From NCBI GenBank assembly GCA_031082225.1, contig JAVHLG010000024.1, positions 1 through 54,413 on the forward strand: a stretch of DNA of 54,413 nt, written 5' to 3'. Below, one piece after another: positions 18,174 through 22,453 of this stretch. The first letter of the stretch is position 1; each line of letters opens with the position of its first letter. The translations under genes and the position numbers were made by a program. Below the pieces are notes generated by a model, which worked only from the letters and a program-made list of their open reading frames with translations, had not been told where the DNA came from and searched no databases. Origin of the DNA: Desulfovibrionaceae bacterium. GTDB taxonomy: Bacteria; Desulfobacterota; Desulfovibrionia; Desulfovibrionales; Desulfovibrionaceae.

Positions 18174-18671
18174 ATGCCTGTCGCCCGTTTCCCAGCCATT
18201 CTCGCCGGGCTGGCATTAGTCGCGTCTTTCGCCTGGGTTCCAGCGGGATTCACCCAGCAACCTGACAGCGCGGCGGCCCCCGAGGCCGTCTACGTCGGCT
18301 CGGACGCCTGCGCCTCCTGCCATGACGCCCAGTTTGCGACCTATTCCAAGTATTCGAAAAAGGCCCATTCCTCAAAAAGCGTACAGATCATGGCCTCGGA
18401 CCTGACCGAGGAGGAACTGCGCGGCTGCTACGGATGCCACACCACGGGCTACGGCAAACCCGGCGGGTTCCAAAGCTTCTCGGCCACGCCCGGCCTGGCC
18501 AACGCCGGGTGCGAGGTCTGTCACGGCCCGGGTTCGGCCCATGCCGAGTCCGGGGGAGACGCCTCGCTGATCAAGGGCAAGCTGACCATGGCCGACTGCG
18601 AGTCCTGCCACAGCGCCGAGCGGGTTGCGGCGTTCAATTTCAAGCCCATGCTCTACGCTGGCGCGCACTAG
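18174..18671 (+). CDS. Periplasmic tetrahaem cytochrome c
   Basis: 165 residues with a signal peptide (about 1-27) and four CxxCH haem sites: CASCH (46-50), CYGCH (85-89), CEVCH (113-117) and CESCH (142-146). The spacing, with the first haem followed by a long Lys-rich loop, resembles the cytochrome c554/multihaem family rather than cytochrome c3. AAGGAGG lies before the ATG. The gene is nine bases before a haem-containing chemoreceptor, so it probably exchanges electrons with, or reports redox state to, that receptor. The exact partner is unknown. Confidence 0.88.
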   Translation: MPVARFPAILAGLALVASFAWVPAGFTQQPDSAAAPEAVYVGSDACASCHDAQFATYSKYSKKAHSSKSVQIMASDLTEEELRGCYGCHTTGYGKPGGFQSFSATPGLANAGCEVCHGPGSAHAESGGDASLIKGKLTMADCESCHSAERVAAFNFKPMLYAGAH

Positions 18672-18680
18672 GAGATGCCC

Positions 18681-20693
18681 ATGGACATCATGGCCCGATC
18701 CATCGGGGTCAAGGTGCTCGTCCTCGTTTCGGCCCTGACCATTATCGCCTTCACCGGGCTTTTCCTGGCCAATTCCTACTGGCAGCACAACAGCACCGTG
18801 GACCAGATCCGGGCCGCGTCCGAGCGCACCTCGGACCTTTTGCGCATGGCCATCGAGGAACCCATGGCCCTGGGGAAAAACCAGGAGACCACGGCCCAGT
18901 TCGACAAGGTGGCCAAGCGCTACAGCGACATCCGCGTGTTCATGACCAATTTCAAAGGCAACATCACCTACGCCACGAATCAGGCCGACCTGCGCAAGGA
19001 TCTGGCCCAGGTCGTTCCCGACGCCCCGTTCAATGAAGCCGTGCAAAAAAGCCTGGCCTCTGCGGCGCACTCCGGCGCCATCATGACCGTGGGCGGCAAG
19101 AGCGCCTTCGTGGAGGTCGCCTCCGTGGCCAACGCCCCGGCCTGCCACCACTGCCACGGCTCCAGCAAGCCCATCCTGGGATCCATGGTGGTCATCAAAG
19201 ACATCGAACAGGAGATGGGCCGCCTCACCGACACCCAGTATAAAAGCGCGGGCATCTCCCTGTTCAGCCTCGTGGGCCTTCTGGCCTGCCTGCTCTTTTT
19301 CATCCGCCGGTCGGTCATAAACCGCATCCGGACCATCGCCGCCGCCTCCCACGAGATCAGCCAGGGGGCCCTGGACGTGTCCTTCAAGGTCCACGGCCAC
19401 GACGAACTCAGTAATCTGGCGGGCAACCTGGCCGAGATGGTGGGCAAGATCAAAGACCAGCTCGAGTACAATAAAAGCATCTTAAGCGGCATCATCATAC
19501 CGCTTTTCGTGGCCGACAAGGACGAGAACTTCGACTTCGTGAACATCCCCCTGCAAAACATCCTGGGCAAGGGGCACAAGGAACTCGTGGGCCGTTCCGT
19601 GGCCGACAGCCTGTCCGGCGAGCAGGGCGGCCGGGTCTGCGCCGAGGTCATCGCCACCGGAACCAGCAAAAGCGGCTTCACCCGGTTCACCCGGGCCGAC
19701 GGCATGGTCTATCCCCTGCACTACGAGATATCCCCCCTGCAAAACGCCTCGGGACAGACCGTGGGGGCCATCGGGGTGCTCATCGACCTGACCCAGGAGG
19801 AGCGCGACAAGGACCGCATCCGGGCCCAGCGCGAAAACCTGCTCAAGGTGGCCGAAGAGGTCACGGAAGTGGCCATGAACCTGTCCGAGGCCTCGGACGA
19901 ACTGTCGCAGCAGATGACGGAACTGACCCAGGGCGTGGACACCACCGCCGGCGAGACCGAGCGGGTGGCCACGGCCATGGAGGAGATGAACGCCACGGTG
20001 CTCGAGGTGGCCAAAAACGCCGGCCAGACCGCCGAGGCCTCGGATGTGGCCAGCCAGGCAGCCCGGGAGGGCGGGCGCGAGGTGCAAAACACCGTGACCG
20101 AGACCCGGCAGGTCTCCAACCGCACCGACAGCCTGGCCCAATCCCTGGGCGAACTCTCCACCCGGGCGGAAAACATCGGCCGGGTCATGGCTGTCATCGG
20201 CGACATTGCCGACCAGACCAACCTCCTGGCGCTCAATGCCGCCATTGAGGCCGCCAGGGCCGGAGAGGCCGGGCGGGGATTCGCGGTGGTCGCCGACGAG
20301 GTCCGCAAGCTGGCCGAAAAGACCATGCAGGCCACCACCGAGGTGGCCGAGGCCATCCGGGACATCCAGGGCAGCACCCGCACCGTGGTCTCGGGCATGG
20401 ACGAAACCAAGGCCAAGGTGGAACTGACGGCGCAGATGGCGGAAAAGTCCGGCGAGGTGCTGGAGCAGATCGTGGCCCAGTCCGACCGCATCGCGGACAT
20501 GGTGCGCAACATCGCGGCGGCCTCGGAGCAGCAGTCCTCCACCAGCGACGAGGTCAATCACAGCGTCAGCCACATCAATGAACTTTCGCAGGCTATTTCG
20601 CGACAAATTCAGGAAGCCAACCACCGCATCGCCGGGGTCCGGGACATGTCCCAGCGTCTGGCCTCGCTGGTGGCGCGGTTTCGGGAGCAATGA
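18681..20693 (+). CDS. DcrA-like haem-c methyl-accepting chemotaxis protein
   Basis: 670 residues from ATG 18681, chosen because GGAG ends six bases upstream (ATG 18675 touches it). A transmembrane helix near residues 10-32, a periplasmic domain with a CHHCH haem-c motif at about 155-159, and a second helix at about 190-210 lead into a HAMP region, a PAS domain (about 255-370) and the MCP signalling bundle, whose tip reads [19 protein letters not shown]. Desulfovibrio DcrA is a known c-haem chemoreceptor for oxygen/redox; the same layout is seen here. It is co-transcribed with a tetrahaem cytochrome. Confidence 0.92.
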
Positions 20694-20699
20694 TCCGGT

Positions 20700-20716
20700 C
20701 CGGGGCCGTGCCCCGG
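20700..20716 (+). terminator. Possible terminator hairpin after the chemoreceptor
   Basis: CCGGGGC and GCCCCGG form a seven-base stem with a three-base loop seven bases after the stop. There is no T run, so termination is uncertain. Confidence 0.3.
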
Positions 20717-20753
20717 GGCCGCGCCGCACCCGGGATGCCGGGCCGGGCGGGTC

Positions 20754-20785
20754 TTGACAAGAAGAGCCGAACTAAAGGATAGACT
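20754..20785 (+). promoter_or_regulatory. Candidate promoter for the rubredoxin leader
   Basis: A perfect TTGACA (20754-20759) is followed by GGATAGACT at 20777-20785, in which the best -10 match (GATAGA, 18-base spacer) is weak. It would start transcription near the beginning of the structured leader described next. Confidence 0.35.
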
Positions 20786-20983
20786 TCACATGGCGCGGCC
20801 GTGATTCCGGTCGCGCCATGAGGACGTTGATGAAACCGGTCCCAAACCGGCGATCTTTCGCCGGGACTCCGTCTGAAAGAGTCCGCCACGGCGATACGAA
20901 AAAACACCCTGTTTGCCGCTCAGGCAAGGGTCGCCCCCCCTGGGACGCGCCCGGCGCTGAGGGCCAAAATGAGGTCTTTTTTT
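20782..20983 (+). ncRNA. Candidate structured small RNA or leader upstream of rubredoxin
   Basis: About 200 bases without a gene but with strong ordered hairpins: CATGGCGCG/CGCGCCATG (20789-20820), CCGGCGA/TCGCCGG with a TCTT loop (20847-20864), GACTC/GAGTC (20865-20883) and ACCC..TTGCC/GGCAAGGGT (20906-20931). GACTTCA (20782-20788) can pair with TGAGGTC (20970-20976), closing the whole segment directly before a run of seven Ts. It reads either as an independent RNA ending at 20983 or as a regulated leader of the rubredoxin-ROO genes. I could not match it to a riboswitch class. Confidence 0.4.
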
Positions 20984-21023
20984 CATGATCGCGGCCGGGA
21001 ACCATTCCCCTGAAGGAGACCAC

Positions 21024-21182
21024 ATGGACAGGTACGTGTGCAACATCTGCGGCTACGTGTACGATCCCAAGGACGGCGATCCGGACAACGGCGTCAAGCC
21101 CGGGACTAAGTTCGAAGATGTTCCCGAGGACTGGGTCTGTCCGGTGTGCGGGGCGGCCAAGGATGAATTCACCAAGGAATAA
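21024..21182 (+). CDS. rub: Rubredoxin
   Basis: 52 residues, the standard length. The two iron-binding CxxC pairs are C6-C9 (CNICG) and C39-C42 (CPVCG), with the usual [10 protein letters not shown] loop between. It carries one electron and in Desulfovibrio gives it to ROO, encoded next. ATG 21024 follows AAGGAG six bases upstream. Unlike in D. vulgaris, no desulfoferrodoxin gene precedes it here. Confidence 0.97.
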
Positions 21183-21250: not shown

Positions 21251-22453
21251 ATGCAACCCGTTCAAATCGTCAAGGATGTCCACTGGGTCGGGACCGTGGA
21301 CTGGGACTGCCGCAATTTCCACGGCTATTCCATCTCCCCGCGCGGCACCACCTACAATGCCTATCTCGTCATGGACGAGAAGGTCACCCTGTTTGACACG
21401 GTCAAGTCCGAGTTTGCGGGCAAGCTTTTGTGCAACATCGCCCACCTGGTCAAACCCGGGGACATCGACTACATCGTGGTCAACCACGTGGAGATGGACC
21501 ATTCCGGCGCCCTGCCCGAGATCGTGGCCAAGGTCCGGCCGGAAAAGATCTTCTGCTCCCCCATGGGCGAACGGGCCCTCAAGCTGCACTTCGACGTGAC
21601 CGGCTGGCCCATCCAGGTGGTGAAGACGGGCGACACCGTAACGATAGGCAAACGCACCCTGTCGTTTCTGGAAACCCGCATGTTGCACTGGCCCGACAGC
21701 ATGGCCACCTACATCCCCGAGGACAAGATCCTCATCGCCAACGACGCCTTCGGCCAGAACATCGCCAGCAGCGAACGCTTCGCCGACGAACTGGACCGCT
21801 CCGAGTTGTATCGCCAGATGGTCCGCTACTACGCCAACATCGTGCTGCCGTTTTCGCCCATCACGCAAAAGATCATCGCGCAAATCGAATCCCTTGGCCT
21901 GGCCATCGATTACCTGCTGCCGGACCACGGGGTCATGTTCCGGGGGGCCGACGTGGCCTTCGCCATCGAATCCTACAAGGCCTTCGCGGCCCAGACACCC
22001 ACGAAAAAGGCCGTGGTGGTCTACGACACCATGTGGCATTCCACGGAAAAAATGGCCAACGCCATCGCCGACGGCCTCATGTCCGAGGGCCTGTCAGTCG
22101 CAATCATGAACCTGCACGTCTTCGACCACAGCGACGTCATGGAGGAGGTGCTGGAGGCCGGGGCCGTGGTGGTGGGATCGCCCACCCACAACAACGGCAT
22201 GATGCCCCGGGTGGCGGACATGCTGACGTATATGAAGGGCTTAAAACCCCAGAACAAGATCGGCGGGGCCTTCGGCTCCTACGGCTGGAGCGGCGAGGCG
22301 GTCAAGGCCGTGGCCGAGGCGCTTTCGGCCATGGGCATGGAGATGCCTGCCGAGCCCCTGCGCTCCCTGTATGTGCCCAGGCATGAGGAGCTGGCCAAGT
22401 ATGTGGAGATGGGACGGACCATCGGCCGGGCCGTGGCCGCCAAGGTGGGCTGA
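21251..22453 (+). CDS. roo: Rubredoxin:oxygen oxidoreductase (flavodiiron protein)
   Basis: 400 residues. The metallo-beta-lactamase-like domain carries the diiron ligands, including HVEMDH (H79, E81, D83, H84). The C-terminal flavodoxin domain from about residue 250 has the FMN loop VVYDTMWHSTEKMA and GSPTHNNGMM. The protein closely follows the D. gigas ROO layout. It takes electrons from rubredoxin and reduces O2 to water in the cytoplasm, and may also act on NO. A short GAGGAT site precedes ATG 21251. Confidence 0.96.
   Translation: MQPVQIVKDVHWVGTVDWDCRNFHGYSISPRGTTYNAYLVMDEKVTLFDTVKSEFAGKLLCNIAHLVKPGDIDYIVVNHVEMDHSGALPEIVAKVRPEKIFCSPMGERALKLHFDVTGWPIQVVKTGDTVTIGKRTLSFLETRMLHWPDSMATYIPEDKILIANDAFGQNIASSERFADELDRSELYRQMVRYYANIVLPFSPITQKIIAQIESLGLAIDYLLPDHGVMFRGADVAFAIESYKAFAAQTPTKKAVVVYDTMWHSTEKMANAIADGLMSEGLSVAIMNLHVFDHSDVMEEVLEAGAVVVGSPTHNNGMMPRVADMLTYMKGLKPQNKIGGAFGSYGWSGEAVKAVAEALSAMGMEMPAEPLRSLYVPRHEELAKYVEMGRTIGRAVAAKVG

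Follow-up and report, generated by a model that had tools for sequence, protein, structure and literature searches.

A conserved and narrowly distributed RNA element, most likely cis-regulatory, upstream of rubredoxin genes in Desulfovibrionaceae

The leader of a rubredoxin gene (rub) in a Desulfovibrionaceae genome ends in an imperfect hairpin of about 70 nt, the arms of which are nearly invariant across four genera of the family. Comparative sequence analysis indicates that this conserved RNA element is real, narrowly distributed and most likely cis-regulatory. The DNA analysed (the window) is a stretch of 54,413 nt, in which the leader occupies positions 20754–20983 and the core of the element positions 20904–20976 of the + strand; covariance model R1 recovers the core at 22 places, each with at least 57.7 bits.

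Genomic context and leader architecture

The leader lies between a chemoreceptor gene and rub, with roo after rub. The rub gene (21024–21182, + strand) encodes a rubredoxin of 52 amino acids (PF00301, 90.3 bits; NF045768, 102.3 bits, cut-off 90) and is preceded by a Shine–Dalgarno sequence, AAGGAG, recognized from the sequence at 21013–21018 (+). The roo gene (21251–22453, +) encodes a flavodiiron protein (PF19583 and PF00258 above cut-off); its product is a putative rubredoxin:oxygen oxidoreductase (ROO), named by context, and the NCBIfam flavorubredoxin models score below their cut-offs. Upstream of the leader, the chemoreceptor gene (18675–20693, +) combines MCP signalling, PAS and HAMP regions with a CxxCH motif, and an MCP motif is found upstream of the element in 20 of 22 copies. 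Together with a gene for a c554-type cytochrome, this CxxCH chemoreceptor gene stands directly 5′ of the rub–roo unit (18174–20693); one possibility is that it encodes a receptor for oxygen or redox taxis next to the genes of oxygen reduction.

The 230-base leader folds at −97.1 kcal/mol, compared with a mean of −78.4 kcal/mol (s.d. 4.8) for dinucleotide shuffles (z = −3.90; 0/200 as good), which bears out the strong hairpins noted in a preliminary description of this sequence; the reverse strand stands out less (z = −2.86; 3/200 shuffles as good). The TTGACA box (20754–20759, +) and the seven Ts (20977–20983) lie where that description had placed them. TTGACA, found 134–177 nt before the core in 22/22 copies, is a putative −35 box of the rub–roo promoter, and GATAGA (20778–20783, +), 18 nt after it, is a putative −10 region (GATA at the same spacing in 21/22). 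Transcripts would thus start near 20789–20791, and it is this conserved promoter-like box that suggests transcription of the element. A consensus scan of 20600–21100 returned no full sigma-70 pair and a single terminator-like site, ending in the T-run at 20977–20983 (0.4 expected).

Two features of the preliminary description were not upheld. GACTTCA (20782–20788) and TGAGGTC (20970–20976), described there as a closing stem, are complementary in sequence, and the predicted fold of the 230-nt leader pairs them. GACTTCA overlaps the −10-like GATAGA, however, and the corresponding GATARACT is present in 12/12 copies of genus g26, none of which (0/12) has the TGAGGTC partner. Because of the overlap with the conserved −10 region, the closing stem is probably not formed in the RNA, and GACTTCA is better read as part of a promoter. 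Nor is the whole stretch of 200 nt a conserved unit, as only the 3′ portion of about 70 nt is common between genera. A 5′ hairpin (20791–20818, +) has a common shape in the leaders of the window genus and of g26 (RNAalifold of 3 and 10 leaders), with a few compensatory pairs in this hairpin near the inferred start (20790–20820) in both genera. A second hairpin (CCGGCGA/TCGCCGG; 20847–20864, +) and a third (GACTC/GAGTC; 20865–20883, +) occur in the window genus only.

Structure of the conserved element

The core (73 nt in the window) favours a long, imperfect hairpin. Its 5′ arm, CCU..UUGCCGCUCAGGCAAGG (20908–20929, +), carries a bulged G at 20918 and AA at 20926–20927; columns 10–26 of this arm are invariant in the 22 copies, except column 17 (20920). 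A variable apical stem-loop follows (20930–20951, +; 14–22 nt between species), and the 3′ arm, CGGCGCUGAGGGC..AAAA..AGG (20952–20974, +), contains unpaired G 20953 and G 20956, with columns 49–60 invariant except column 57 (20960), the partner of 20920. The block common to roo-upstream regions can accordingly be written as CCUY..UUGCCGCUCAGGCAAGG, a variable stem and CGGCGCUGAGGG..AAA..GG. In the middle of the hairpin, CGCUSAGG occurs on both strands, each time with one G left unpaired; this pseudo-twofold symmetry could suit recognition by a dimeric protein.

The stability of the isolated 73-nt hairpin is unremarkable in the window (z = −1.04; 23/200 shuffles as good) and ranges from z = −1.0 to −5.3 across 11 core sequences folded alone; the case for the hairpin rests on conservation, not energy. 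In predicted folds of the 22 leaders, the inner helix has a probability of at least 0.89 in 20, and another fold is favoured in the remaining two (G075, 0.02; G011, 0.57).

Two other functions were considered for this region and rejected. Partition folding leaves the Shine–Dalgarno sequence unpaired with a probability of 0.14–0.73, with no consistent masking. A protein-coding leader peptide was discarded because the inter-arm stretch takes every length from 14 to 22 nt, and therefore no reading frame is kept across the element. As a separate observation, one frame of a single copy translates the 5′ arm as CPLCRSGK, a possible remnant of a second rubredoxin gene, and a 16-bit match in genome G018 falls within a gene of this kind.

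Conservation and covariation

In comparisons between genera (147 pairs), the 29 arm columns show 98.3% identity, compared with 51.0% for the 5′ leader outside the arms (49.1% when shuffled), 50.1% for the apical stretch, and 57.6% and 60.1% for the third codon positions and fourfold sites of rub. The same block stands out in within-genus alignments, although much of the remaining leader is retained as well within the window genus. Only columns 17 and 57 vary among the 29, and they pair with each other (U–A in 17 copies, U–G in 3 and G–C in 2); if any two columns could vary, the chance of their being partners would be about 10/406 pairs.

A covariance alignment, which the preliminary description had proposed as a check, was made and retains the inner stem of the 3′ element in 22/22 copies. 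In a MAFFT alignment that was not fitted to the structure (A2), 12/12 inner pairs hold in 19/19 distinct rows, the covariation score is reached by 4/500 column shuffles, and paired cells fall to 30–49% when the alignment is slid by 1–3 columns. Pair 17–57 alone changes on both sides, and by two measures, the number of pairs changed on both sides and that of further pair types, 100/500 shuffles do as well (A2). The hand alignment of 22 copies contains 418/418 standard pairs; its outer stem was fitted to pair and so provides no independent evidence. The 21 G–U pairs among the 418 fit the + strand acting as RNA.

Strand-swap tests were used as unfitted measures of the other two stems. Native halves of the apical stem pair better than exchanged ones (64/10,000 permutations as good). 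The outer stem is unsupported by this test over four genera—the native mean is −9.46 kcal/mol versus −8.53 kcal/mol for swapped halves, and at least 4 of 24 arrangements beat the native one.

Distribution and association with rub

We searched 288 genomes of the family with R1 and found the 22 places in 21 genomes, with the next score at 32.7 bits. The element spans four Desulfovibrionaceae genera (window genus, 3/3 genomes; g26, 11/14; g10, 6/7; g32, 1/1). Each genome has a single strong copy, except G357 (89% complete, 3% contaminated), in which two copies both precede rub–roo; further rubredoxin genes are therefore without the element. At an E value of 0.05, the family search listed 84/288 genomes (including the 21 strong ones), and in none of nine weaker loci (L067–L075) do the listed open frames include a following rub. 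When 59 relatives were searched at the DNA level, the whole leader was recovered only in the two other genomes of the window genus (identities of 80% and 86%), with short matches to the 3′ part in G011, G027 and G033 (in G027 also to an upstream stretch); a short match in G045 was taken as chance.

Wider searches added little, with the qualification that the stricter filters of these large searches lose weak matches. Among 348 genomes of the order (E value of 1e-6), the same 21 were found, plus G265 (32.7 bits), the 3-kb locus of which contains no rubredoxin motif. Among 395 genomes of the phylum, the search returned the three window-genus genomes and seven weak matches (25.0–28.6 bits), all seven of which overlap an open frame of at least 120 codons and none of which has a rubredoxin motif within the fetched 3 kb. 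An exact-pattern scan of a genome contig collection gave at least six stretches, assigned to Solidesulfovibrio, Fundidesulfovibrio or Desulfovibrio, and the same scan of viral contigs gave no match. On a 30-row ROO tree, two changes are needed to account for the element; the forks are weak.

All 22 strong copies precede a rubredoxin gene, and the conserved 3′ arm ends 38–61 nt before the rub start. Genomes G361 (L065) and G083 (L066) retain rub and the element, including its changed base pair, with roo present in fragments only; the element therefore goes with rub, not with roo, which looks decayed in both (no ROO match at 1e-60 in G083, the one of the two covered by that search). In these two genomes the roo fragments lie about 400–600 nt after the element and the HU gene comes later, an order also seen in the window. 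Genomes G120 and G132 have neither the element nor a ROO match at 1e-60, and their only rubredoxins are distant (49.9 and 49.2 bits, against 95.6–119.1 bits in five element-bearing genomes). The other element-less genomes of the four genera, G360 and G284, are 69% and 66% complete.

The rbo–rub–roo operon of other Desulfovibrionaceae contains the same rub and roo genes. Among 40 roo-upstream loci from family genomes that lack the element, a rubredoxin is present in 38 and rbo precedes it in 28 (by a motif that misses some rbo), whereas the core motif occurs by pattern in 0/40; the best R1 score in these and 19 earlier loci is 16.1 bits. A published regulon study reports that its authors detected no conserved regulatory element at the Rbo/Rub/Roo operon (PMC545781).

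Comparison with known RNAs

No Rfam 15 family covers the leader at gathering score; the sole match in the window at that score is a tRNA gene (1168–1239, 69.6 bits). Permissive scans of the window stretch, G033 and G129 gave nothing near a cut-off, the best leader matches being mir-1909 (20.4 bits, cut-off 80) and rmf (18.2 bits, cut-off 45). The latter family (RF01755) matches 20775–20904 weakly (E value of 0.42), but far below its cut-off and in a part that is not conserved between genera. The absence of any family at threshold agrees with the preliminary description, which had recognized no riboswitch consensus. Its broader proposal of a structured, conserved leader of a rub(–roo) oxygen-defence unit behind TTGACA is likewise supported, the box being conserved and the leader without an Rfam match.

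The element shares with riboswitches and protein-responsive leaders its location in a 5′ leader, its conserved structure, the invariance of unpaired bases alongside a variable apical stem, and a terminator-like form in one genus. It is also a conserved structured RNA in a 5′ leader, as a riboswitch is, provided that it is transcribed as we infer. It differs from these systems in having no Rfam match, a single gene type and a narrow distribution. A riboswitch class commonly, though not necessarily, has its aptamer upstream of several genes from one pathway; here rub is the only gene type, which hints at no particular ligand.

Possible modes of action

We propose with moderate confidence that 20904–20976 acts in cis, as an RNA element of the rub–roo 5′ leader, and that it works as follows. 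A promoter at TTGACA/GATAGA would start a leader of about 230 nt, the 3′ part of which would fold into the long imperfect hairpin with invariant bases G 20918, AA 20926–20927, G 20953 and G 20956. Recognition of the hairpin's sequence and shape by a protein or small molecule may then set the amount of rubredoxin. The sequences show conservation, inner and apical pairing, position and synteny; the transcription start, the partner, the direction of control and any link to oxygen are what we infer beyond these.

The means of control probably differs between genera. In the window genus, the hairpin stands between an A6 tract (20899–20904, +; 3/3 leaders) and a terminator-like U7 tract directly after it (20977–20983, +; 7, 8 and 8 Ts in the three leaders). 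In the other 19 copies, the longest A-run is at most 3 and the longest T-run within 15 nt after the stem is at most 4, so that a hairpin with an immediate U-run occurs in 3/3 window-genus leaders and 0/19 others. Given the position between A6 and U7–8, control in the window genus would most likely be premature termination (attenuation), and a short leader product of about 190 nt is plausible there; as only 3/22 copies have the U-run, this is not a general mechanism. In the other three genera, which have no U-run, the hairpin may act on translation, mRNA stability or processing. The stable window-genus hairpin, with its flanking tracts, is thus like an intrinsic terminator or attenuator, and the element as a whole is unlike one in that 19/22 copies have no U-run and its arms are invariant, which a terminator does not need. 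Within the three leaders of this genus (window, G001 and G002), CACGGCGATACGAAAAAACACCC (20887–20909) is invariant, and its sequence seems conserved beyond what the A-tract alone needs.

We consider it unlikely that the hairpin senses nothing and is a passive mRNA stabilizer or an RNase processing site. A long stem directly upstream of a gene for an abundant small protein would suit such a role, as would the strong constitutive expression of the Rub/Roo operon of D. gigas from a sigma-70 promoter, as described in the regulon study (PMC545781); but a generic stabilizer needs no invariant bulges, and 27/29 arm columns are invariant over four genera.

Somewhat more doubtful is a two-state RNA switch, in which the 5′ arm would first close on itself (UUGCC-GCUCA-GGCAA) and then be captured by the 3′ arm. 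The state would be selected by a ligand or protein linked to iron, flavin, redox state or oxygen. Column 17 is the only variable position of the self-complementary stretch, even though the AA within it stays unpaired when the long hairpin forms. In 22/22 copies, folding favours the long hairpin over the local one by 5.9–14.7 kcal/mol (pseudoknot uncounted); the small hairpin would therefore matter only during transcription or when something stabilizes it. If true, anaerobes would here possess an RNA sensor that serves an oxygen-defence operon.

The same terminator-like layout and own promoter in 3/3 window-genus leaders could also mark the end of a small regulatory RNA, a product of about 190 nt that acts elsewhere while rub is expressed by read-through. 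We regard this as improbable, since the 19 other copies have no U-run, the element always lies near the rub start, and G120 and G132 have lost it along with rub.

The dyad in the 5′ arm invites a reading at the DNA level, in which a transcription factor would bind the duplex at TTGCC-N5-GGCAA and at a second block. TTGCC-GCTCA-GGCAA forms a perfect dyad around a spacer of 5 bp, and its dyad positions are invariant in 22/22. The blocks, however, lie 14–22 nt apart with all nine whole-number lengths occurring, the sole varying columns are RNA partners that keep their pairing partly through U–G, and the site would fall more than 100 bp inside the transcript, which together make an operator very improbable. 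Equally hard to credit is the idea that the element simply terminates transcription of the chemoreceptor gene upstream—a same-strand chemoreceptor motif precedes 20/22 copies and the window genus has its U-run, but the element lies downstream of the conserved TTGACA box, G033 has it with no chemoreceptor motif upstream, 19/22 copies have no U-run and the sequence is too conserved for a terminator.

Implications

In the titles and opening lines of abstracts from the literature on RNA elements and transcription in Desulfovibrio and Solidesulfovibrio and on rubredoxin (most subscription papers lie outside this coverage), we found no description of such an element. To our knowledge, the control of rubredoxin and of oxygen reduction in sulfate reducers is poorly known. 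The cis-acting hairpin proposed here is a sharply bounded, nearly invariant element tied to rub in 22/22 copies, and the comparison provides the bases to mutate, the limits of the motif and natural compensatory variants. If the element senses something, strict anaerobes would be controlling oxygen defence at the level of RNA.
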